The position numbers were made by a program, and so were the translations under genes. Shown piece by piece: positions 1,725 to 50,998 of a stretch of 64,000 bases of DNA. The notes beneath the pieces are model-generated. The model made no database searches, was not told the DNA's origin, and saw only the letters and a program-made list of their open reading frames with translations. Origin of the DNA: Amaurobius ferox (Eukaryota; Arthropoda; Arachnida; Araneae; Amaurobiidae); the NCBI GenBank assembly GCA_951213105.1, contig OX578152.1, positions 67,992,727 through 68,056,726 on the forward strand, given 5' to 3'. The stretch's first letter is position 1. Each line of letters starts with the position of its first letter.

Positions 1725-2947
1725 AGTAAGATCAATGATGCATAAAGCATTGATTATGAAACACTTTCCAACTTTAATTTTATTTAAACATCTCTAAAAT
1801 GCGATACATTCAGCGGTAATATATCACAATACTGCAATAATTAATTATATTTGAAAATTTAAAACTTCATCGAAAAATAAGAACTTGATTCAAATGATGT
1901 CATCGAAATATAAATCGCCTGGCTCTCTGTGTATAAGCAGTAAATATTTCATTTATACATTTTTATTTCATTCATCACAGTACTACAATAATTTATTCTA
2001 CTTCAAAACTTAAAACCATGGAGGCCAAAGTAATTAACTCTATGCATGAAACTTCATCGAAGAAGTCTGCCATTAAATCGTCTGCTTCTCTATGTAAAAT
2101 CAATGAATGTTTCATTCATATCATCTATATTGCAGATTCCTGAGCAAAATAATTTTGCGTTAAAGAAATTCAACAATTCTTATACAACTCATCTTACAGC
2201 CCAATCAGTTTGCATTCTCCATAAGTAGAAATTATGTTTCGTTGCAGAAATAATCAAAGTTTGATGATCATTTAAACTCAAATATATTGTAATTGTGCTG
2301 TTTCAGAATACAGATGTACAAAAATTAAGCAAAAATAAAGCTGTTTTAGGAAAGATGCGAGACTAAATATAAATTAAAAATAATTTTAAAAATCACGATT
2401 TCGACACAAGATGGATGCCAGGGCGCGGTAGTCCAGTGGTTAGCGCGGGAATTGCACTCGGTAGGCCCGGGTTCGATTCCCGCCACTGCCAGAACTGCCG
2501 CCCTGTTCACGCGGAGTACGATCACGTTAAATATGTGGGTCTGTAAGTTCTTCCGAGAGGTTGGTGGTAGGGGAAGGAGGATACGGTAGCTGTGGATGCC
2601 TCCCCCACTGCGTTCCGGTCTAAATTGGTGTGGCACTTCCCGGCCGTCCAAACTGTTACCTTACACCTTTCTGGTAGGTCGGATGGTCTGGGTCTTAACA
2701 ACAAGATGGATGCCATATTTTATTTTGAAGTGGTTCACGTGATCTCTTCATATAATGGTCACGTAATCTCTTCATATAATGGTCACGTGATCTCTTCATA
2801 TAAAGGGTTTAATTATAATTTTAATTGTTATTTTAAAAAACTACTGAATATATTTTGCTGAACATTTTTTTATATATTTTATGAGATAATTTGAATATTT
2901 CCTAAAACTTTCGAAGCAATTTGTGAATTTTAAATTCGCTTAAAAAT
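1725..2947 (-). repeat. interspersed repeat C, copy 1 (carries a nested SINE)
   Basis: It begins with the C 3' hairpin (a GCATAAAGC core with TGATT/AATCA arms) and GAAACACTTTCC. It runs through the same blocks as the copies at 17493-18768, 25097-26380, 48977-50998 and 56194-57186, and is cut off at about 2947 before the microsatellite end. A SINE (2421-2700) interrupts it with a 15-bp target-site duplication. No ORF is conserved. Confidence 0.8.
2421..2700 (+). repeat. tRNA-derived SINE, full-length reference copy
   Basis: A tRNA-like head (about 2421-2490) carries an A-box-like TAGTCCAGTGGTTAG and a perfect box B, GGTTCGATTCC. The body follows (GGTTGGTGGTAGGGGAAGGA, then CTTCCCGGCCGTCC) and the element ends in TCTTAACA. 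The perfect 15-bp repeat ACAAGATGGATGCCA flanks it (2406-2420 and 2701-2715), which marks LINE-mediated insertion into repeat C. It should be a Pol III transcript with no protein product. Relatives lie at 10503-11016 (minus) and 49999-50639. Confidence 0.9.
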
Positions 2948-10160: not shown

Positions 10161-10502
10161 CGACTCAAACAAATACTAACGGTTTCCAACGAGTTCAAAC
10201 AATTCCCAAGATGGAGACTTAGCACCATGAATGCTCTATGATTAGAACATTCATGCAATGTAGTGCGTAACCAAATATTGAACATCAGATATCGATTCTC
10301 CCCATTCACGGATGAAGTTTACGGGGGTGACACGAGCGATAGTTCGTTATAGTTTCAGGATTCGCAAAAGATGGCTCGAAAGTGGAGTATCATGTGTCTT
10401 TCATATGAAGCCCTTTGTTCGTATCATTGAAATTCCTGGGAATCACCTTTTGGAGCGCGTCTATCGAATCACTCAAGTTTCGTCAGCCAACGATAACGAT
10501 AG
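10161..10502. other. unassigned moderate-GC segment
   Basis: A 67-codon plus frame (10312-10515) crosses a less AT-biased stretch. Its end runs into SINE tail sequence and I see no domain. It could be an old exon or an old repeat. Confidence 0.3.
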
Positions 10503-10690
10503 TCTTTCTTTCTAACGAAAACCGTTCGACCTACCCATAGCTGTACGGTATCTGTTTGGACGCCAGAAAAGTGCTACTACCCAATTTAGACCAGAACCCA
10601 TTGGAGGCGGCATCCCCAATGTAACCGTACCATCCTTACCCTGCCATCAACATCTCGGATGGACGTTCGGTCCCACTGATTTAACTTGCT
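10503..10690 (-). repeat. tRNA-derived SINE, 5'-truncated copy
   Basis: On the minus strand the 3' half of the SINE body is readable (complement of CCCAATTTAGACCAGAACCC and of GTAACCGTACC). The tail complement, CTTTCTTTCT, lies near 10503. The tRNA head is missing. Confidence 0.65.
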
Positions 10691-10724
10691 TGTGCCTTCA
10701 TAAACACGGGGATAACCATAAACG

Positions 10725-11016
10725 TTCTTTCTTTCTTTCGACCCAGATAATCCAACCTACCCATAGATGTATGGCATATTTGGACGGACGAGACAGTGCC
10801 ACTCAATTTAGACCGCAACCTAGTGGGACCGACATCCATAGGGACCGTACCCTCCTTTCCCTACCACCAATCTCACGGAAAGATTTTCAGACCCACATAT
10901 TTACCGTACCCGTACTCCTCGTGAAAATGGGAATAGTTTGAGCAGAGCAGGGAATCGAACTCACGTCCTCCGAGGGCAATCCCGTGCTTTAATCACTGCG
11001 CTGTCCCACACCGGGA
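10725..11016 (-). repeat. tRNA-derived SINE, near full-length copy with (GAAA)n tail
   Basis: On the minus strand the head (11016 downward) contains CAGCGCAGTGATTAAAGC and box B GAGTTCGATTCCC. The body follows, with the complements of CTACCACCAATCTC and AATTTAGACCGCAACC, and the tail is a GAAA run (CTTT on plus, 10726-10739). Imperfect flanking repeats GATAACCATAAACG (10711) and GATAACCTAAACG (11021) look like a decayed target-site duplication. It keeps box B, unlike the copies at 50 kb. Confidence 0.75.
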
Positions 11017-11261
11017 TAAAGATAACCTAAACGATAGCTTCGAAAGTTCCCAGAATATTTCTCATAAAGCTAGCTTGAGAACAACAAGGAATATGAGCAG
11101 AAAAAAACTGAAAAGAACTCTAGGAAATAGACACTGAATTCTCCACATATAATAGAACGAAGTGGCAGACGCATAGTATAAGGATGGAATGTTTTTTTTT
11201 AACCTCAGATTAATTTCTTTATTTTTCTAGCTTCGATTACGATGATGTTTACCAACAACTC

Positions 11262-14289: not shown

Positions 14290-14375
14290 AAAGTGCCTCA
14301 TTAATTTCCTGTATTTCAAAATATGAATAATATTAAGATATGTTAATAATAATTTCTCGGGAACAAAAAAGTTTC

Positions 14376-14447
14376 CTCCCCGGCGGGGAATCGAACCCCG
14401 GTCTCCCGCGTGACAGGCGGGGATACTGACCACTATACTACCGAGGA
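14376..14447 (-). tRNA. tRNA-Asp (GUC), copy 1
   Basis: A 72-nt cloverleaf on the minus strand: acceptor TCCTCGG, D-arm with TAGTATAGTGGTCAG (box A), anticodon stem-loop CCGCCTGTCACGCGG with anticodon GTC, and T-arm CGGGGTTCGATTCCCCG (box B). A T6 run follows just after the gene (AAAAAA at 14365-14370 on plus), a proper Pol III terminator. It decodes GAC/GAU. Looks functional. Confidence 0.95.
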
Positions 14448-14526
14448 CACAGAAGTTACTAACACATATAGATATTTCAGAATATGAATAATATTAAGAT
14501 ATATCAATATAAAAAAATTGTATATC

Positions 14527-14598
14527 CTCCCCGGAGGGGAATCGAACCCCGGTCTCCCGCGTGACAGGCGGGGATACTGACCACTATACTACCGAGGA
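14527..14598 (-). tRNA. tRNA-Asp (GUC), copy 2, T-stem variant
   Basis: Same 72-nt gene, anticodon GTC. One change (ccccgg-A-gggg on plus) replaces the closing G of the T-stem by T, giving a C49/T65 mismatch. A T-run follows (AAAAAAA at about 14511-14517 on plus). Possibly a less efficient gene. Confidence 0.92.
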
Positions 14599-14690
14599 CA
14601 CAGAAGTTCTTAACACATATACATATTTCAGAACATGAATAATATTAAAATATGATAATAATTTCTCAGGAATTGAAAAAGTTAAACTTT

Positions 14691-14762
14691 CTCCCCGGCG
14701 GGGAATCGAACCCCGGTCTCCCGCGTGACAGGCGGGGATACTGACCACTATACTACCGAGGA
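14691..14762 (-). tRNA. tRNA-Asp (GUC), copy 3
   Basis: Identical in sequence to copy 1 across the 72 nt as read. Anticodon GTC. A T5 terminator lies downstream (AAAAA near 14676-14680 on plus). Minus strand. Confidence 0.95.
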
Positions 14763-14800
14763 CACAGAAGCTGTTAACACATTTATATATTTAAATAAAT

Positions 14801-24870: not shown

Positions 24871-25096
24871 AAACAAAAAAGGTTGGAAATCCCTGGTTAA
24901 AACATGAAAAAAATAGAAACTCTATCACAACGATAATTTTCCTCTTACTCAACAATGAAAAATATGACGACATCAAAATGACTAGTTATTTAATTATGAG
25001 CATTTTATGGGGAAGATTATTTTTTATATCAATTGTGTGTATAACGCAGACGATTTTTATTAATATTTTATTCCAATTTAAAAAATAAACACGAAA
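24871..25096. other. AT-rich sequence related to the D 3' part
   Basis: TTGGAAATCCCTGGTTAAAA and AAACTCTATCAC recall 1550-1680. The plus frame at 24864-25088 is AT-driven. Confidence 0.35.
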
Positions 25097-26380
25097 TATC
25101 AATCATGCATAAAGCATTGATTATGAAACACTTTCCAACTTCAATGCAATTTTATTTAAACATCTCTATAATGCGATACATTCCTCGGTAATATTTTTAA
25201 AATTATCACAATACTACATTAATTTATTATATTTAAAAACTTAAAACTTCATCGAAAAAAATGAACTTCATTCAAATGACGGCATTGAAATATAAATTGC
25301 CTGGTTTAAATATCTCTAAAATGCGATACATTCCTCGGTAATATTTTTTTTAAATCATCATAATATCTACAATATCTACAATAATTTATTATATTTGGAA
25401 ACTTCATCAGAAACAAATGAAATTTATTCAAATGACGTCATCGAAATATAAATCACCTGGCTCTCTCTATAAAAGCAACATTTCATTCATAAACATTTTT
25501 CCATTCCTTTCATTCATCACAATACTATAATAATTTATTTTATTTAAAAACTTAAAACCATGGAGGTACAAGCAATTTAACTCTATGCTTAAAACCTCAT
25601 CAAAAAAATCGTCTTCTTCTCTGTGTAAAATCAATGAATGTTTCATTCATATCAGCGATATTGCAGACTCCATGAGCTAAATAATTTTGCGTTAAAGAAA
25701 TGCAGCAATTCTTATACAACTCATTCTACATCTTTTGGTGTTTACATTCTCCATAAGTGCAAATTAGGCTTCGTTGTAGAAATAATCAAAGTTTGATGAT
25801 CATTTAAACTTAAATATATTGTAATTGCGTTGTTTCAGTATGTTGATGCACAGAATTTAAGCAAAAATAAAGCGATTTTAGGACGGATACAACACTAAAT
25901 ATGAATTAAAAAGAACTTTAAAAATCAGGATTTTGACACATGATAGATGCTATATTTTATTTTGAAGTGGGTCACGTGATCTCTTCATATAAAGGGTGTA
26001 ATTATTATTTTAATTTTTATTTTAAAAACTACTGAATATATTTTGCTGAAATTTTTTTATATATTTTATGGGATAATTTGAATATTTCCTAAAACTTTCG
26101 AAGCAATTTGTGAATTTTAAATTCGCTTAAAAAAATGTTTGAAAAATTAGGTCTCATAGGATTCAATGTATTTCATTTTTTCAACCCGGGTTCAATCCAA
26201 GACTAATTGGGTGATATTATTCATTTATATTCCCGTAGGTCCCACAGACCGTCTGAACAACATACTAAAATTTCATTTTGATAATGTCATTTTTACGGCA
26301 GTTATCGTTCTAACGGACAGACAGACAGACAGAATGAACAAAGTCATAAACACATTTCAACTACGTTGTAAAGTGTTAAA
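25097..26380 (-). mobile_element. family C element C3, full length
   Basis: 3' hairpin at the left (AATCATGC loop GCATTGATT), then GAAACACTTTCCAAC, a tandem duplication of the GCGATACATTCCTCGGTAAT block (25160 and 25320), CAACCCGGGTTCAATCC, (GACA)n at 26310-26325, and the 5' hairpin with CAACTACGTTGTAAAGTGTT at 26358-26377. Confidence 0.85.
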
Positions 26381-28252: not shown

Positions 28253-28825
28253 TTACATGGTATATTTGAAATTATTAATAATATTATTTACAAATACTTC
28301 CGGATGTTGGAAATTTTGACAAATGCGTTTAAGATTATTGATGTGGAGAAAGTGAAACCGAGGATCAGAAAGTCGATGTATTCGAAATAGCTGGTTTAAA
28401 ATGATGTTTCTAAACAATTGAATAGAATTACAAGATTGATATGATAGCAGCTTTATGATAGTGAAGTTGTAAGAATCTTTTTTGTCATATAGATTGGTGA
28501 TTACATGATTATTGAGGGTATCTAAATTTAAGTCTAAAAAATTTACAGTTTGACTAACGCTAGGCTCATTAGGAATTAATTCTAGGTTAGATGGGTAAAA
28601 ATCCATATTAATTGGATAGGAATCATCAATGATAATACAAATTAAGTCGTCAACATATCTATATATAATATATGAATTAGAGTTAAAATGGCATTCATAA
28701 TAATAAAGATATAAGTTAGCGAGTATACTACAACTACAGCCACCTTGTGGTACACCAGATGTTTGTATATAAATGTTATCACCTAGGATAATATAATTGT
28801 TGTATAACACAAAGTGTAAGAGCAT
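28253..28825 (-). pseudogene. Penelope-like reverse transcriptase, 5'-truncated inverted copy
   Basis: A 190-codon frame equals the C-terminal quarter of the RT at 28931-31216. It keeps the GVPQGG motif, a YVDD active-site box (YRYVDDLICIII), the VNFLDL motif and the C-terminal HINNLKRICQN region. It lacks GIY-YIG, motif A and everything N-terminal, since homology stops near 28855 at an (AT)n tract. It differs from the plus copy at several residues (YVDD against YADD, EPSVS against EPCVS). 5'-truncated inverted partners are common in Penelope-like insertions. It cannot encode a working enzyme alone. Confidence 0.88.
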
Positions 28826-28858
28826 AAGAAAGTTTTTGACATTAAATGCAACATTATT

Positions 28859-28882
28859 ATATATATATATATATATATATAT
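28859..28882. repeat. (AT)n microsatellite between the two Penelope copies
   Basis: About 12 AT units separate the truncated inverted copy from the plus copy. The reading frame of the plus copy runs open into it. Confidence 0.9.
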
Positions 28883-28930
28883 TGTAACTTATCTTATATT
28901 GGCCAAACCAGCAACCCTTTACATCTTAGA

Positions 28931-31216
28931 ATGAATGTACACAGGGATCATATTAAAAAATTTGACCATAAAGTCTTTAATGATCTCCCTACTAAAAATC
29001 AATTTGAATATCAGCACTTTGCTACACACGGATTTAAAAATGTATCCCTTCATATTTTAGATATTAAAATTTCACTCACGGATAGATTAGTATTTGAAAA
29101 TTATTACATTAAAAAATATAAAACTCTCTTCCCCTTTGGCTTAAATCAAATTTATAATAATAATAATGTTGTTAACAATAGTTTTGAATACAATTCTCAT
29201 AAATCTTCAGTATATAAACATCTTTTTCATTATTCAAAGTCATCAACTCCTAGTAAAAAGCGATATAAGCGTGGCAAAGGAAAAAGTAACTTAAGTAAAA
29301 CTATTGATTACAAAGCAGACATTTTGAAATTACAATATAATTATTCTCAAACTTTCAATTTTCTACCTGTTAGAACATGGTTATATAAAGTCAGAAAAAA
29401 CAAATTAAGTATTGTTTATACTAATTTTTTAAAATTAAAATTAACTCATGAGCATTTTAAACATTTATTTTTTGATTTGCTTCTTTCTCGTACAAATTTC
29501 TTAAATTACCACCTACTCCATACACCAAATCCACATACTAAAATAGCTTACTGTGTTATTTCTTTTAAACACCCTATTCTTAATTCTCTTAACTTCAATA
29601 ATTTATTTGCAAAACATCAGCACTTGTTACCAGTAAATGATATCAAAATACAAAAATCATTTAAATATAATTTACCAATTGGTAGAACTATTTATAATTA
29701 CAATGAAGTTTCCAGGACATTAAACTCCGATGATCTTACATCATGTGTATGCAGCAATCAAAATCTTGCCCCTTTTGTCAACTCCACTCATGGTCACATT
29801 ATTACTGGGGATCTCAGTATAGTTCAGGATGATATACTTAGGGATATTATGAATAAAGGGTCTAAATTTCGCATTCCATTCTGCCATCACCCTAAACAAC
29901 TTCTTCAGTCTCTATCATTTGATTTTGATAAATTCATATATCAACTTGCTTGTTCACATTCTATTCCTATTGAAGCATTCAATCTATGGAAGTATACTAC
30001 CTTATATCTACTTAAAAATTTTATTATAAACATTAAATTAACGAAGCCTAGGTATCATTATAAACAACTCCTTTCTGCTATCAAAGAACTACAACAACAT
30101 TTTGTCATAACTTATGTAGATAAAGCTTCTAATAATTATGCCATCATTTGTAAAAAATATTATGTTTCTCTGTTACAGAATTACTTAAAAAATAATCAAA
30201 TTTTTAAACCCATTAATAATCAGTCTATCCAAATCAAAACTAAAATGCTAAAATTATATACACAATTAAATATTAATTGTAAGTATTTTAAATTTCCTTA
30301 TGTTACTTTGGTTCCTAAATTCCACAAATCACCTCTCAGTTTTAGAATAGTCACTTGTGGACATAATACCTTTACCACTACAGCTAGTAAGTACTTGCTT
30401 AACTGTTTAAATCGAATTAATGAATCTCTTAAATTCAGGAATTCAGGATATTTCATTTTGAACAATAGTTTTGATTTAGTTAATCACCTTAGCAAGTTTC
30501 CACAAATTCTTGGTTTCCAAACCTTTGATTTTAAAGACCTATTTAATAATATTGTCATTAAAGATTTACATAAAGTTACTATCTCTCTTTATCATGACTA
30601 TATATCATCCAATCATGTTGCTTTTAATGTCAAAAATTTTCCTATGCTCTTGCACTTTGTGTTATACAACAATTATATTATCCAAGGTAATAACATTTAT
30701 TTACAAACATCTGGTGTACCACAAGGTGGCTGTAGTAGTAGTATACTCGCTAACTTATATCTTTATTATCATGAATGTCATTTTAACTCTAATTCATATA
30801 TTATATATAGATATGCTGACGACTTAATTTGTATTATCATTGATAATTCCTATCCCATTAATATTGATTTTTACCCGTCTAACCTAGAATTAATTCCTAA
30901 TGAGCCTTGCGTTAGTCAAACTGTTAATTTTTTAGACCTAAAATTAGATACCCTCAATAATCATGTTATCACCAATCTATATGATAAAAAAGATTCTTAC
31001 AACTTCTCTATCATAAAGCTGCTATCATATCAATCTTGTAATTCTATTCAATTGTTTAGAAACATCATTTTAAACCAGCTATTTCGAATACATCGTCTTA
31101 CTGATCCTCAGTTTCACTTTCTACACATCAATAAACTTAAACGCATTTGTCAAAATTACCAATATCCGGAAGTATTTGTAAATAATATTATTAATAATTT
31201 CAAATATACCACGTAA
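28931..31216 (+). CDS. Penelope-like element polyprotein: GIY-YIG remnant plus reverse transcriptase (Naiad-type)
   Basis: A 761-codon uninterrupted frame. The 16 codons just upstream (28883-28930) are also open and read CNLSYIGQTSNPLHLR, the second half of a GIY-YIG nuclease motif. Inside the ORF come the HRDH region (4-7), the likely catalytic Glu (FENYYI, E56) and the closing GLN (70-72). A basic stretch KKRYKRGKGK (109-118) may be a nuclear signal. A CVC motif (272-274) and HGHIITGDL (287-295) precede the RT. RT landmarks: YVDKASNNY (395-403), LVPKFHKSPLSFRIV (460-474), motif A TFDFKDLF with D533, GVPQGG (595-600), YADD (628-631) and FLD (667-669). An N-terminal endonuclease before the RT is the permuted order of Naiad/Chlamys Penelope-like elements. 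Assignment to Naiad is inference. The GIY half is lost in the (AT)n tract, so the element is 5'-truncated. The intact RT suggests recent insertion. Confidence 0.9.
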   Translation: MNVHRDHIKKFDHKVFNDLPTKNQFEYQHFATHGFKNVSLHILDIKISLTDRLVFENYYIKKYKTLFPFGLNQIYNNNNVVNNSFEYNSHKSSVYKHLFHYSKSSTPSKKRYKRGKGKSNLSKTIDYKADILKLQYNYSQTFNFLPVRTWLYKVRKNKLSIVYTNFLKLKLTHEHFKHLFFDLLLSRTNFLNYHLLHTPNPHTKIAYCVISFKHPILNSLNFNNLFAKHQHLLPVNDIKIQKSFKYNLPIGRTIYNYNEVSRTLNSDDLTSCVCSNQNLAPFVNSTHGHIITGDLSIVQDDILRDIMNKGSKFRIPFCHHPKQLLQSLSFDFDKFIYQLACSHSIPIEAFNLWKYTTLYLLKNFIINIKLTKPRYHYKQLLSAIKELQQHFVITYVDKASNNYAIICKKYYVSLLQNYLKNNQIFKPINNQSIQIKTKMLKLYTQLNINCKYFKFPYVTLVPKFHKSPLSFRIVTCGHNTFTTTASKYLLNCLNRINESLKFRNSGYFILNNSFDLVNHLSKFPQILGFQTFDFKDLFNNIVIKDLHKVTISLYHDYISSNHVAFNVKNFPMLLHFVLYNNYIIQGNNIYLQTSGVPQGGCSSSILANLYLYYHECHFNSNSYIIYRYADDLICIIIDNSYPINIDFYPSNLELIPNEPCVSQTVNFLDLKLDTLNNHVITNLYDKKDSYNFSIIKLLSYQSCNSIQLFRNIILNQLFRIHRLTDPQFHFLHINKLKRICQNYQYPEVFVNNIINNFKYTT

Positions 31217-32091: not shown

Positions 32092-32484
32092 CGTAGAAGA
32101 ACGAGTATACTGCTAGCCTATTTATAAAATAATGAAAGATATTGAATATTTCACCCATTGGATATTTATGCAATAGTTATAGTTCAAGCGGCAAGATTTT
32201 CACTTTGGAAAATCTTATTGAAGCAGGGATTTTTTGTAGCGACAATGAATTCAGTTTAGCAGCAATGAACATTGTTGATATTCTCACGATCTACTCAGAA
32301 AATTGCTAGATAAAAATTAAAAGTAATTAAAAATAATAATAAAAAAGTGAAAAAAAAAAAAATGCCATACCAGTGAATGCCAAACAATGATAGAAAAATG
32401 CCAAACCAATTAAAATGTATTTTCATTAATCACATTCAATGTGAAGCTCCAGATCCTGGTTACCACTGTTATCCCCACTAAAAG
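32090..32484. other. repeat K resumption and AT-rich spacer
   Basis: 32090-32110 (ATTCCGTAGAAGAACG) continues K, compare 59978-59995. The rest is unassigned. Confidence 0.45.
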
Positions 32485-33081
32485 AGTGGCACCTATATCG
32501 TAAACATTGTCTGGTGTGAAGCCTTCAGATGAATGGCCCCTACATCGTAAACATTATATGGTGTGAAACCTTGGAATGAGTGGCACCTACATCGTAAACA
32601 TTGGTGTGAAGCCTTGGGATGAGTGGCCCCTACATCGTAAACATTATATGATGTGAAACCTTGGAATGAGTGGCACCTACATCGTAAACATTGGTGTGAA
32701 GCCTTGGGATGAGTGGCACCTACATCGTAAACATTGTCTGTTGTGAAACCTTGGGACAAATGGCACCTACATCGTAACCATTATATGGTGTGAAGCCTTG
32801 GAATAAGTGACACCTACAACGTAAACATTATCTGGTGTGAAACTTTGGAATAAATGGCACCTACATCATAACTATTATATGGTGTGAAGCCTTGGAATGA
32901 GCGGCACCTACAACGTAAACATTGTCTGGTGTGAAGCCTTGGGATGAGTGGGACCTACATCGTAAACATTGTCTGGTGTGAAGCCTTGGGATAAATGGCA
33001 CCTACATCGTAACTATTATATGGTGTGAAGCCTTGGAATGAGTGACACCTACATCGTAAACATTGTCTGGTATGAAACCTT
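32485..33081. repeat. 47-bp minisatellite, about 13 units
   Basis: The unit runs GTCTGGTGTGAAGCCTTGGG, ATGAGTGGCACC, TACATCGTAAACATT. Some units lack the GTCTG start (42 bp) and others have TATATGGTGTG. The minus-strand ORF (QCLRCRCHSFQGF repeats) is a by-product of unit lengths and not a credible gene. Confidence 0.92.
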
Positions 33082-48552: not shown

Positions 48553-48976
48553 TTACTATAGGTGTGATGGGGAAAAGGTTGCGAAGCATCGCGATTTGGA
48601 GAATACCGCATGGGCACGAGAGTAAATAAATGACCTGCGTAGTAGAATGCGCAGAAGCGTAAGTGCATACGTAAGTTTTACCATAGCGGGTAATGGTAAA
48701 CTGACGATGATAACAAATAAATATGACCCATCAAACATCGACATTGATCTTTGTGCTGAAAATAAGTTATTTAGAAAACTTGAGTAACAATATATGTTTC
48801 AATTTTCATCTACTGAAATGTACTATAAGTGATTTTAAGTGAATGTACATACACTACAACTCATTTTTCCAGCAGTCACTAGCAAGCGTTCTGTAGATGT
48901 GTATACAGCAAATTCTACAGTATATGCGAGCGAGAACGGAAGGTGCATAATGATTGAAAAAGAAAAAAAAAACAAG
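48553..48976. other. unassigned spacer
   Basis: No gene or repeat recognised. Confidence 0.35.
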
Positions 48977-49863
48977 AAAGATAAATCATGCATAAAGCAT
49001 TGATTATGGAACACTTTCCAACTTCAGTGCAATTTTATTTAAACATCTCTAAAATGCGATACATTCATCGGTAATATTTTAAAAATTATCACAATACTAC
49101 ATTAATTTATTATATTTGAAAACTTAAAGCTTCATCGAAAAAAATAAACTTCATTCAAATGGCGGCATTCAAATGTAAATTGCCTGGATTAAACATCTCT
49201 AAAATGCGATACATACCTCGGTAATATTTTTAAAATTATCATAATACTGCAATAATTTATCATATTTGAAAACTTCATCGAAAACAAATGAAATTTATTC
49301 AAATGACGTTATCGAAATATAGCACGCCTGTCACTCTCTATAAAAGAAGCATTTCATTCATAAACATTTTTCCATTCATTTCATTCAACACAATACTATA
49401 ATAATTTATTTTATTTAAAAACTTGAGACCATATAGAGGTACAAGTAATTAAACTCTATGCTTAACTTCATCGTAAACATCCTGCTTCTCTCTGTAAAAT
49501 CAATGAATATTTCATTCATATCAGCTGTACTGCAGACTCCATGAGTTAAATAATTTTGCGTTAAAGAAATGTAGCAATTCTTATACAATTCATTCTATAT
49601 ATTTTGCTGTTTACATTTTTCATAAATGAAAAGTAGATTTCGTTGTAGAAATAATCAAAGTTGGATGATCATTTAAACTCAAATATATTGTAATTGCGTT
49701 GTTTCAGCATGTAGATGCACATAATTTAAGCAAAAATAAAGCGGTTTCAGGACGGATACAACACTCAATATTATACCATGGTGCAATATATCACGATTTT
49801 GAGACAAGATGGATGTCATATTTTATTTTGAAGTGGATCACGTGATCTCTTCATATAATGGTC

Positions 49864-49878
49864 ACATGATCGCTTCAT
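49864..49878. repeat. 15-bp target-site duplication, left
   Basis: ACATGATCGCTTCAT, identical to 50640-50654. Removing 49879-50654 restores the family C sequence CTTCATATGAAAAGTGTAAT. Confidence 0.93.
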
Positions 49879-49879
49879 G

Positions 49880-49998
49880 GCCAACGGCCCTACCGTGCTG
49901 AAAACACCGGTTCTCGTTAGATCACCGAAGTCAAGCAGCATCGGACGCGGTTAATACTTGGGTGGGTGACCACCTGGGACACCGCGTGCTGTTGGCAA
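49880..49998 (+). rRNA. 5S rRNA sequence 1 (head of a retroposed composite)
   Basis: About 119 nt with the animal 5S layout: GCCAACGGCCCTACC 5' end, GTTCTCGTTAGATCACCGAA, GTCAAGCAGCATCGG (A-box region), GGGTGGGTGACCACCTGGG (box C region) and GTGCTGTTGGC 3' end that pairs with the 5' end. It starts one base after the left target duplication. It is followed directly by a SINE body and not by a T-run, so it is a 5S-derived SINE head, not an ordinary 5S gene. A covariance search would still call it 5S. AATACTTGG and GGGACACC differ from the second copy. Confidence 0.88.
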
Positions 49999-50201
49999 CT
50001 TTCGGACGCGGTAGCCCGGTGGTTTGCGCTCTGGATTTGCACGCTGCCACAACTGCCGCCGTGTGGATCCGTAAGTCCTTCTGAGAGGTTGGTGGTAGGG
50101 GAAGGAGGGTACGGTCCCTGTGGATGCCTCCCCCACTGGGTTCCGGTCTAAATTGGGTGGCACTTCCCGGCCGTCTAAACAGTTACCTTACACCTTTCTG
50201 G
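49999..50201 (+). repeat. SINE body 1, box B deleted, 3'-truncated
   Basis: Aligns to the SINE at 2421-2700 from GCGGTAGCCCGGTGG onward but lacks the about 25 bases holding box B (GGTTCGATTCC). It also lacks about 30 bases after GCCGCCGTG. It ends at CACCTTTCTG where the second 5S begins, missing the last part of the body. Confidence 0.88.
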
Positions 50202-50320
50202 GCCAACGGCCGTACCGTGCTGAAAATACCGGTTCTCGTTAGATCACCGAAGTCAAGCAGCATCGGGCGCGGTTAGTACTTGGTGGGTGACCACCTCGGA
50301 ACACCGCGTGCTGTTGGCCA
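50202..50320 (+). rRNA. 5S rRNA sequence 2 (internal head of the composite)
   Basis: Same layout as the first copy with GCCGTACC, GAAAATACC, CATCGGGCGCGGTTAGTAC, one G fewer in TTGGTGGGTGACC, and CACCTCGGAACACC. It is embedded between two SINE bodies. Internal control-region sequence is largely kept, so Pol III factor binding is possible, but transcription would read into the SINE. Confidence 0.88.
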
Positions 50321-50639
50321 TCTCGGGTGCGGTATCCCCGTGGTTTGCGCGCTAGATTTGCACGCTACCACAAATGCCGCCGTGTTCATGCGGAGTACGA
50401 TCACGTTAAACATGTGGGTCCGTAAGTCCTTCCGAGAGGTTGGTGGTAGGGGAAGGAGGGTACGGTCCCTGTGGATGCCTCCCCCACTGGGTTCCGGTCT
50501 AAATTGGGTGGCACTTCCCGGCCGTCCATACAGTTACCTTACACCTTTCTGGTAGGTCGGACGGTCTGGGTCTCAACAACAACAACAACAACAACCTTAC
50601 ACCTTTCTGGCAGGTCGGACGGTCTGGGTCTCAACAACA
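50321..50639 (+). repeat. SINE body 2, box B deleted, duplicated 3' end with CAA tail
   Basis: Shares the box B deletion with body 1 but keeps the TTCATGCGGAGTACGATCAC segment and the full 3' part. The last about 45 bases (CCTTACACCTTTCTGG...GGTCTGGGTCTC) occur twice, separated and followed by (CAA)n. It ends at the right target duplication. Confidence 0.9.
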
Positions 50640-50654
50640 ACATGATCGCTTCAT
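50640..50654. repeat. 15-bp target-site duplication, right
   Basis: ACATGATCGCTTCAT, identical to 49864-49878. Confidence 0.93.
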
Positions 50655-50998
50655 ATGAAAAGTGTAATTATTATTTTAATTTTTATTTAAAAAACTACTG
50701 AATATATTTTGCTGAAATTTTTTTTATATATTTTATGAGATAATTTGAATATTTCCTAAAATTTTCGAAGCAAATTGTGAATTTTAAATTCGCTTAAAAA
50801 ATGTTTGAAAAATTAGGTCCCATAGGATTCAATGTATTTGATTTTTTCAACCTGGGTTTAATCCAAAACTAACTGGGTGATATTATTCATTTATATTCCC
50901 GTAGGTCCCACAGACCGTCTGAAAAACATACTAAAATTTCATTTTGATAAAGTCATTTTTACGGCAGTTATCGGGCTAACTATGTTGTAAAGTGTTAA

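Follow-up and report, generated by a model that had tools for sequence, protein, structure and literature searches.

Background

Two SINEs of Helicoverpa armigera, the 5S-headed HaSE3 and the tRNA-headed HaSE1, are described as having a common body and 3' tail, and HaSE3 has been proposed to originate from template switching from a tRNA-SINE RNA to 5S rRNA (PMC3272025). AmnSINE1 and the DeuSINEs consist of, in this order, a 5S-derived promoter, a tRNA-derived region, a central domain and a 3' tail (PMC3234267, PMC12015672, PMC3747384). The lepidopteran 5S-headed SINEs PxSE4 and PxSE5 are reported to be present in thousands of copies, with promoters showing about 63% identity to Bombyx 5S (PMC8010984), and for 5S-headed SINEs in general several separate origins are reported (PMC10886601). 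For Alu elements, "transposition in transposition", i.e. the presence of a young SINE within an older one, gives the relative age of the elements (PMC3014933).

In the present study, a window of 64,000 nucleotides from the spider Amaurobius ferox (assembly GCA_951213105.1, contig OX578152.1, positions 67,992,727 to 68,056,726 of the forward strand) was analysed, which contains two copies of a 5S-headed SINE (5S-SINE). As in the case of HaSE3 and HaSE1, the body and 3' tail of this 5S-SINE recur behind a tRNA head in the same genome; unlike HaSE3 as described, the 5S-SINE has a tRNA remnant with a deleted B box between the 5S and the body. The order of parts is that of AmnSINE1 and the DeuSINEs, to which the family is likened by architecture, but in contrast to AmnSINE1 and the DeuSINEs as described there is an abundant sibling without 5S in the same genome. 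With PxSE4 and PxSE5 it shares the 5S head and a copy number in the thousands within an arthropod; their promoters of about 63% identity stand against heads that match the whole 5S model with 97.5 and 100 bits, although these are different measures. As with nested Alu elements, a younger SINE lies inside an older one, whereas the nesting surveyed here was sought, and found, in a narrow part of the family's own 3' tail.

A sequence-only reading of the window had called a 5S head on a body otherwise carried by a tRNA head, in the form of a dimer, unusual and not known to it as described. For the kind of element this does not hold, since HaSE3 shares its body with the tRNA-headed HaSE1 (PMC3272025), AmnSINE1 has the order 5S, tRNA and body (PMC3234267 and PMC12015672), and several origins of 5S-SINEs are on record; the kind of element is therefore known. 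As far as searches show, what is new within the literature searched is this 5S-SINE family itself, its promoter remnant and its recurrent insertion into its own tail. Titles and abstract openings, drawn mostly from outside the subscription literature, contained no mention of this family or of any arachnid 5S-SINE.

Structure of the locus

The features of the locus and of the tRNA-headed sibling in the window (T1) are listed in Table 1. Our interpretation, with an estimated probability of about 0.96, is that monomers of a single 5S-headed SINE family were inserted here twice, one after the other. The evidence for this interpretation consists of both target-site duplications (TSDs), the continuous tail of the host unit, the difference in divergence between the two units, and like events at other loci.

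Table 1. Features of the nested 5S-SINE locus and of the tRNA-headed sibling in the window
Feature	Position	Strand	Remarks
T1, tRNA-headed sibling SINE	2421..2700	+	A- and B-box matches
TSD of T1, 15 bp	2406-2420 and 2701-2715		ACAAGATGGATGCCA
Family C repeat copy carrying both insertions	48963..50980	+	matches to 25080-26314
Outer TSD, left copy, 15 bp	49864..49878	+	ACATGATCGCTTCAT; belongs to unit A; empty site known
Unit A, older host 5S-SINE	49879..50201	+	5' part, up to the interruption by unit B in the tail
5S rRNA-derived head, unit A	49880..49997	+	Rfam RF00001, 97.5 bits, model 1-120
tRNA-head remnant, unit A	50004..50050	+	47 nt; A-box half retained in altered form, B-box half deleted
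Inner TSD, left copy, 17 bp	50185..50201	+	ACCTTACACCTTTCTGG; originally unit A tail
Unit B, younger guest 5S-SINE	50202..50593	+	complete, 392 bp; begins at first base of 5S model
5S rRNA-derived head, unit B	50202..50319	+	Rfam RF00001, 100 bits, model 1-120
tRNA-head remnant, unit B	50325..50371	+	47 nt
Body, unit B	50372..50535	+	common to tRNA-headed SINE
3' tail, unit B	50536..50593	+	with (CAA)n
Inner TSD, right copy	50594..50610	+	ACCTTACACCTTTCTGG; exact 17-bp repeat
Remainder of unit A tail	50611..50639	+	resumes past the unit B insertion
Outer TSD, right copy	50640..50654	+	ACATGATCGCTTCAT; identical 15 bp

The outer pair of identical 15-bp TSDs is present as the sequence-only reading had reported. 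Its caveat is that unit A was inserted within a 24-bp tandem unit of family C; both TSD copies have the same two local variants, and the empty family C copy aligns without gaps. When the flanks are joined with a single TSD, they align ungapped with the family C copy at 56681-56487 on the minus strand (172/195), confirming that removal of the insert restores family C sequence.

The order of parts had been given as TSD, 5S, body, 5S, body, CAA tail and TSD. This order is correct as far as it goes, but it misses a second tail after a 17-bp repeat. Behind the (CAA)n of unit B, ACCTTACACCTTTCTGG is exactly repeated, and from there the tail of unit A continues up to the outer TSD. The exact junctions in the window are TCTGG|GCCAACGG and the second tail. 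If unit B and one copy of the inner TSD are removed, unit A matches both unit B and T1 through the tail. Unit B and T1 are identical at 191 of 205 positions of body and tail.

Divergence was determined from a family consensus of 104 full copies, part of whose loci had been picked by similarity to the window units, which favours copies resembling unit B. Unit B differs from this consensus at 2 of 377 sites and unit A at 17 of 344, and these values did not change when the consensus was restricted to the 61 copies in the short-pattern loci. Since unit B is nearer to the consensus, unit A is taken to be the older host and unit B the younger guest. The proposal that the whole array was mobilised together as a single retroposed dimer is wrong at this locus, because the second TSD of 17 bp, by which unit B is set into the tail of unit A, had been overlooked.

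Both 5S heads can be folded as 5S rRNA, with standard pairs at 9 of the 9 positions of the first helix (helix I), and as good a fold was reached by none of 200 shuffled sequences. A 31-base body pattern, itself derived from these copies, has five exact matches in the window and none in 100 shuffles. With two 5S matches over the full model and this body pattern set against shuffles, chance is not an issue for the parts. The body of unit A is short by about 30 bp, and the junction of this deletion occurs in none of the 104 full 5S-SINE copies.

Copies of the family in the source genome

A search of the source genome (3.56 Gb) produced 6978 first-look candidates, 40 of which were scored, giving 43 matches; 22 of the 43 from this scored portion are unit-B-like stretches with 99-100% identity. 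TSDs were analysed in 42 full copies from 40 loci, including unit B of the window, a top-scoring set that is biased towards copies lying beside extra tails. A TSD of at least 11 bp was found for 40 of these 42 sampled copies, compared with 46/1718 in a mismatched-flank control, in which left and right flanks of different loci were paired and treated by the same procedure. With zero mismatches allowed, the numbers were 35 of 42 and 28/1718, respectively. Among the 40 copies with a TSD, this repeat begins with AC in 33 and is 13-18 bp long in 36, the commonest length being 14 bp (17/40).

The family thus consists of dispersed copies each with its own TSD, as is characteristic of SINEs, and judged by sequence its head comes from a Pol III gene, as RF00001 is matched over the full model. 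The 5' end is derived from 5S rRNA as in SINE3 elements, unit B starting at model position 1. The succession of 5S, tRNA-derived region and body that is typical of AmnSINE1 is common to the family, as the 5S-tRNA junction was found within 4 edits in 93 of the 104 copies. Monomers are the form in which the family has usually moved in this sample.

Most of the TSD-bearing copies (33/40) start 1-3 bases, usually G, ahead of the first base of the 5S; an upstream start or untemplated bases are candidate causes. At one locus (L050, C12:44597913) a single 5S-SINE has an additional piece of tail between its two TSD copies, which suggests that the tail was duplicated in the course of reverse transcription. 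We counted this locus against our preferred interpretation, as it illustrates that a tail piece can be duplicated within one TSD pair. Another locus (L008, C1:9123225) has two successive 5S-SINEs with the TSD sequence ACATAAACAGCAACT to the left, between and to the right of them, which can be read either as two insertions at one site or as a tandem duplication.

Exact body, tail and invertebrate-5S patterns gave no matches in viral contigs, nor did body and 5S patterns in the genome contig collection beyond the source genome. Translated frames of the SINE body yielded 51 candidates in a protein collection, none of them at E 0.001. No placement of the family beyond the source genome is therefore made here. 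A short body pattern did occur in five viral contigs, but was rejected as chance, with alignments around the word of at most 24 bases.

Recurrent nesting in SINE tails

The genome has 227 places at which the start of the 5S-SINE, GCCAACGGCC, follows the tail word CTTACACC within 30 nt, as compared with none for a reversed-pattern control. The first 50 listed of these 227 places were examined, the pattern being aimed at a narrow part of the 3' tail. At 37 of the 50 the 5S-SINE abuts another SINE body; the hosts are tRNA-headed in 19 cases, 5S-headed in 13 and unresolved in 5. A TSD of at least 11 bp is present in 31 of the 37 abutting pairs, a tail of at least 10 nt past the TSD in 29, and both in 28. 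A rough control, whose flanks share tail sequence, gave 10 of 65. Of the other 13 places, three (L096, L108 and L114) combine a TSD resembling the tail with a continuing tail, though no SINE body was recognised there; this combination is absent from the remaining 10.

With 5S-headed hosts, an inner TSD and a resuming tail are present in 10 of the 13 pairs, and likewise in L007, which came from a separate search. The sequence-only reading had suggested a count of single and paired units with their own TSDs in the source genome. In the source genome, 40/42 of the sampled copies have a TSD of at least 11 bp, the abutting pairs examined are mostly nested (28 of 37), and 3 of the 37 are seamless. 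Relative age could be scored for 13 pairs of a 5S-SINE in a 5S-SINE, namely 12 of the 13 with 5S-headed hosts plus L007 (L097 was omitted because of a truncated guest). In 11 of these 13 the guest lies nearer to the consensus than its host does; in L007 and L088 it is slightly farther away.

The usual inner TSD at the nesting places is ACACCTTTCTGGTA, with or without G or GG, and the inner site of the window starts five bases to the left of this site. None of the 50 examined places has an inner TSD equal to ACCTTACACCTTTCTGG, which counts against the interpretation of two successive insertions, and the exact junction string of the window is absent among 100 listed of the 227 places. At least one of the two features, TSD or continuing tail, is missing in 9 of the 37 abutting pairs. 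L078 and L123 have a TSD and no tail past it, in L099 the TSD contains one mismatch and no tail was recognised, L105 has a tail and a repeat of just 9 bp, and L113 and L097 are unresolved.

The three seamless pairs, L086 (C2:56346555), L107 (C3:159268484) and L120 (C7:33479874), have neither an inner TSD nor a resuming tail; the exact outer repeats that enclose them measure 13, 12 and 11 bp, respectively. In the two that were scored the first unit is the more diverged one (94.1 versus 98.4% for L086, 92.1 versus 94.2% for L120). Such pairs could have been mobilised jointly, or could have arisen by nesting with a subsequent deletion of the repeated tail. The idea of a dimer moving as a unit may therefore apply to a minority of pairs elsewhere, though not to the locus in the window.

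The tRNA remnant and the tRNA-headed sibling

The sequence-only reading had recognised a 5S head on the body of a tRNA-SINE. The body is indeed shared with T1, but the tRNA head was not simply exchanged, as a remnant of it is kept behind each 5S, with an alignment score that none of 2000 shuffles reached for either unit. Neither of the two box patterns, A or B, is matched by the remnants of the two units, whereas T1 matches both. The 5S promoter for Pol III is internal to the 5S. Since the remnants do not match the box patterns that T1 matches, promoter function appears, judging from these patterns, to have shifted from the tRNA to the 5S. Within 4 edits each, the junction of the B-box deletion is present in 102 of the 104 5S-SINE copies and the 5S-tRNA junction in the 93 mentioned above, while a B box is matched in none of the 104. 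As to decay of the tRNA remnant, 7 of its 47 positions are different between units A and B, versus 11 of 281 elsewhere (Fisher p 0.007, for one pair only). A run of four T residues is absent from units A and B and from T1; it occurs in 53-58% of base-shuffled versions, which makes its absence weak evidence.

The tRNA-headed sibling is abundant in the source genome, with 5316 first-look candidates, 40 of which were scored. A TSD of at least 11 bp is present in 24 of 30 copies (the copy in the window included), and 16 of these 24 begin with AC. Within the window, the tail matches SINE copies only. The two families have the same 3' tail, a (CAA)n end, and TSDs that are mostly 13-18 bp long and often start with AC, for which reason we infer that a shared putative partner LINE recognises the common tail and mobilises both the 5S-SINE and its tRNA-headed sibling.

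Origin of the locus and alternative explanations

We propose that unit A was first retroposed into the family C repeat, which would have produced the outer TSD, and that unit B was later retroposed into the 3' tail of unit A, where its 17-bp TSD would split the tail and give the appearance of a dimer. The 5S-SINE would most probably be transcribed by Pol III from its 5S promoter. It may have originated when a 5S was joined ahead of a tRNA-headed SINE, perhaps via template switching, with loss of the B-box half of the tRNA head.

The succession of parts within one outer TSD would also be produced if the array had been inserted as a single unit, from an RNA that was already a dimer of the 5S-SINE or from two RNAs linked through template switching in one reverse transcription, and the seamless pairs, 3 of 37 with only an outer repeat of 11-13 bp, suggest that such a process might occur elsewhere. 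A unitary dimer has one TSD pair and no inner TSD, however, whereas the locus in the window has an inner TSD of 17 bp and an exact resumption of the unit A tail. If the two breakpoints are taken as independent and uniform, the chance that they overlap by 13-18 bp in the right order is about 1.5%. In addition, units A and B are unequally diverged, and an inner TSD is present in 10 of the 13 further 5S-in-5S pairs that were examined. In the two seamless pairs scored the first unit is likewise the more diverged one, which a later deletion between repeated tails would explain as well. Insertion of the window array as a single unit is thus very improbable. The remaining alternative, that the locus is what is left of an array of 5S genes with acquired SINEs, would account for two 5S sequences that are near complete and fold as 5S, but it is at odds with the TSDs, with the 5S-tRNA junction common to the copies, and with the dispersal of TSD-bearing copies over many contigs. 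We regard it as more improbable still, in agreement with the sequence-only reading, which had already set aside such an origin; the 5S-SINE is a retroposon and bears TSDs.

Starting from two successive insertions of a monomeric 5S-SINE, a broader model can be sketched, to which we give rather less than even odds. The tail may be both the RNA end used by the LINE and a preferred DNA target, in which case the family would home into its own copies and build arrays, a few of which could become seamless and possibly mobile dimers. In the same model the 5S would have taken over as promoter, a whole foldable 5S replacing a tRNA promoter that was later dismantled, alongside the tRNA-headed sibling.

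The correction of an apparent dimer to an ordered nesting has a practical side, as the full set of nested pairs could yield a chronology of the two sibling families. Moreover, the two families form a natural pair in one genome, with the same body and tail and two Pol III-type heads, that is useful for comparing how promoters support retroposition. A concrete target motif for the putative partner LINE is provided by the narrow stretch of tail in which nesting occurs.

Other features of the window

On the minus strand at 10500-11020 there are two older SINE relatives with (GAAA)n tails, arranged head to tail and with imperfect TSD-like repeats as read by eye; one has a tRNA-like head and the other is truncated at the 5' end. 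They are perhaps a second, older case of adjacent or nested insertion.

Reverse transcriptase-like reading frames occur on both strands at 28253-31216. One of them (28820-31216; 798 residues from stop to stop) has a start resembling a GIY-YIG motif, a feature of those Penelope-like elements that carry an endonuclease at the N-terminus. A Pfam search gave no domain for this frame, and a sub-threshold RVT_1 match alone for the minus-strand frame.

Three tRNA-Asp (GTC) genes are present at 14374-14792 in a tandem repeat of about 151 bp, and a further tandem array, with 12.9 copies of a 47-bp unit, extends over 32484-33081.
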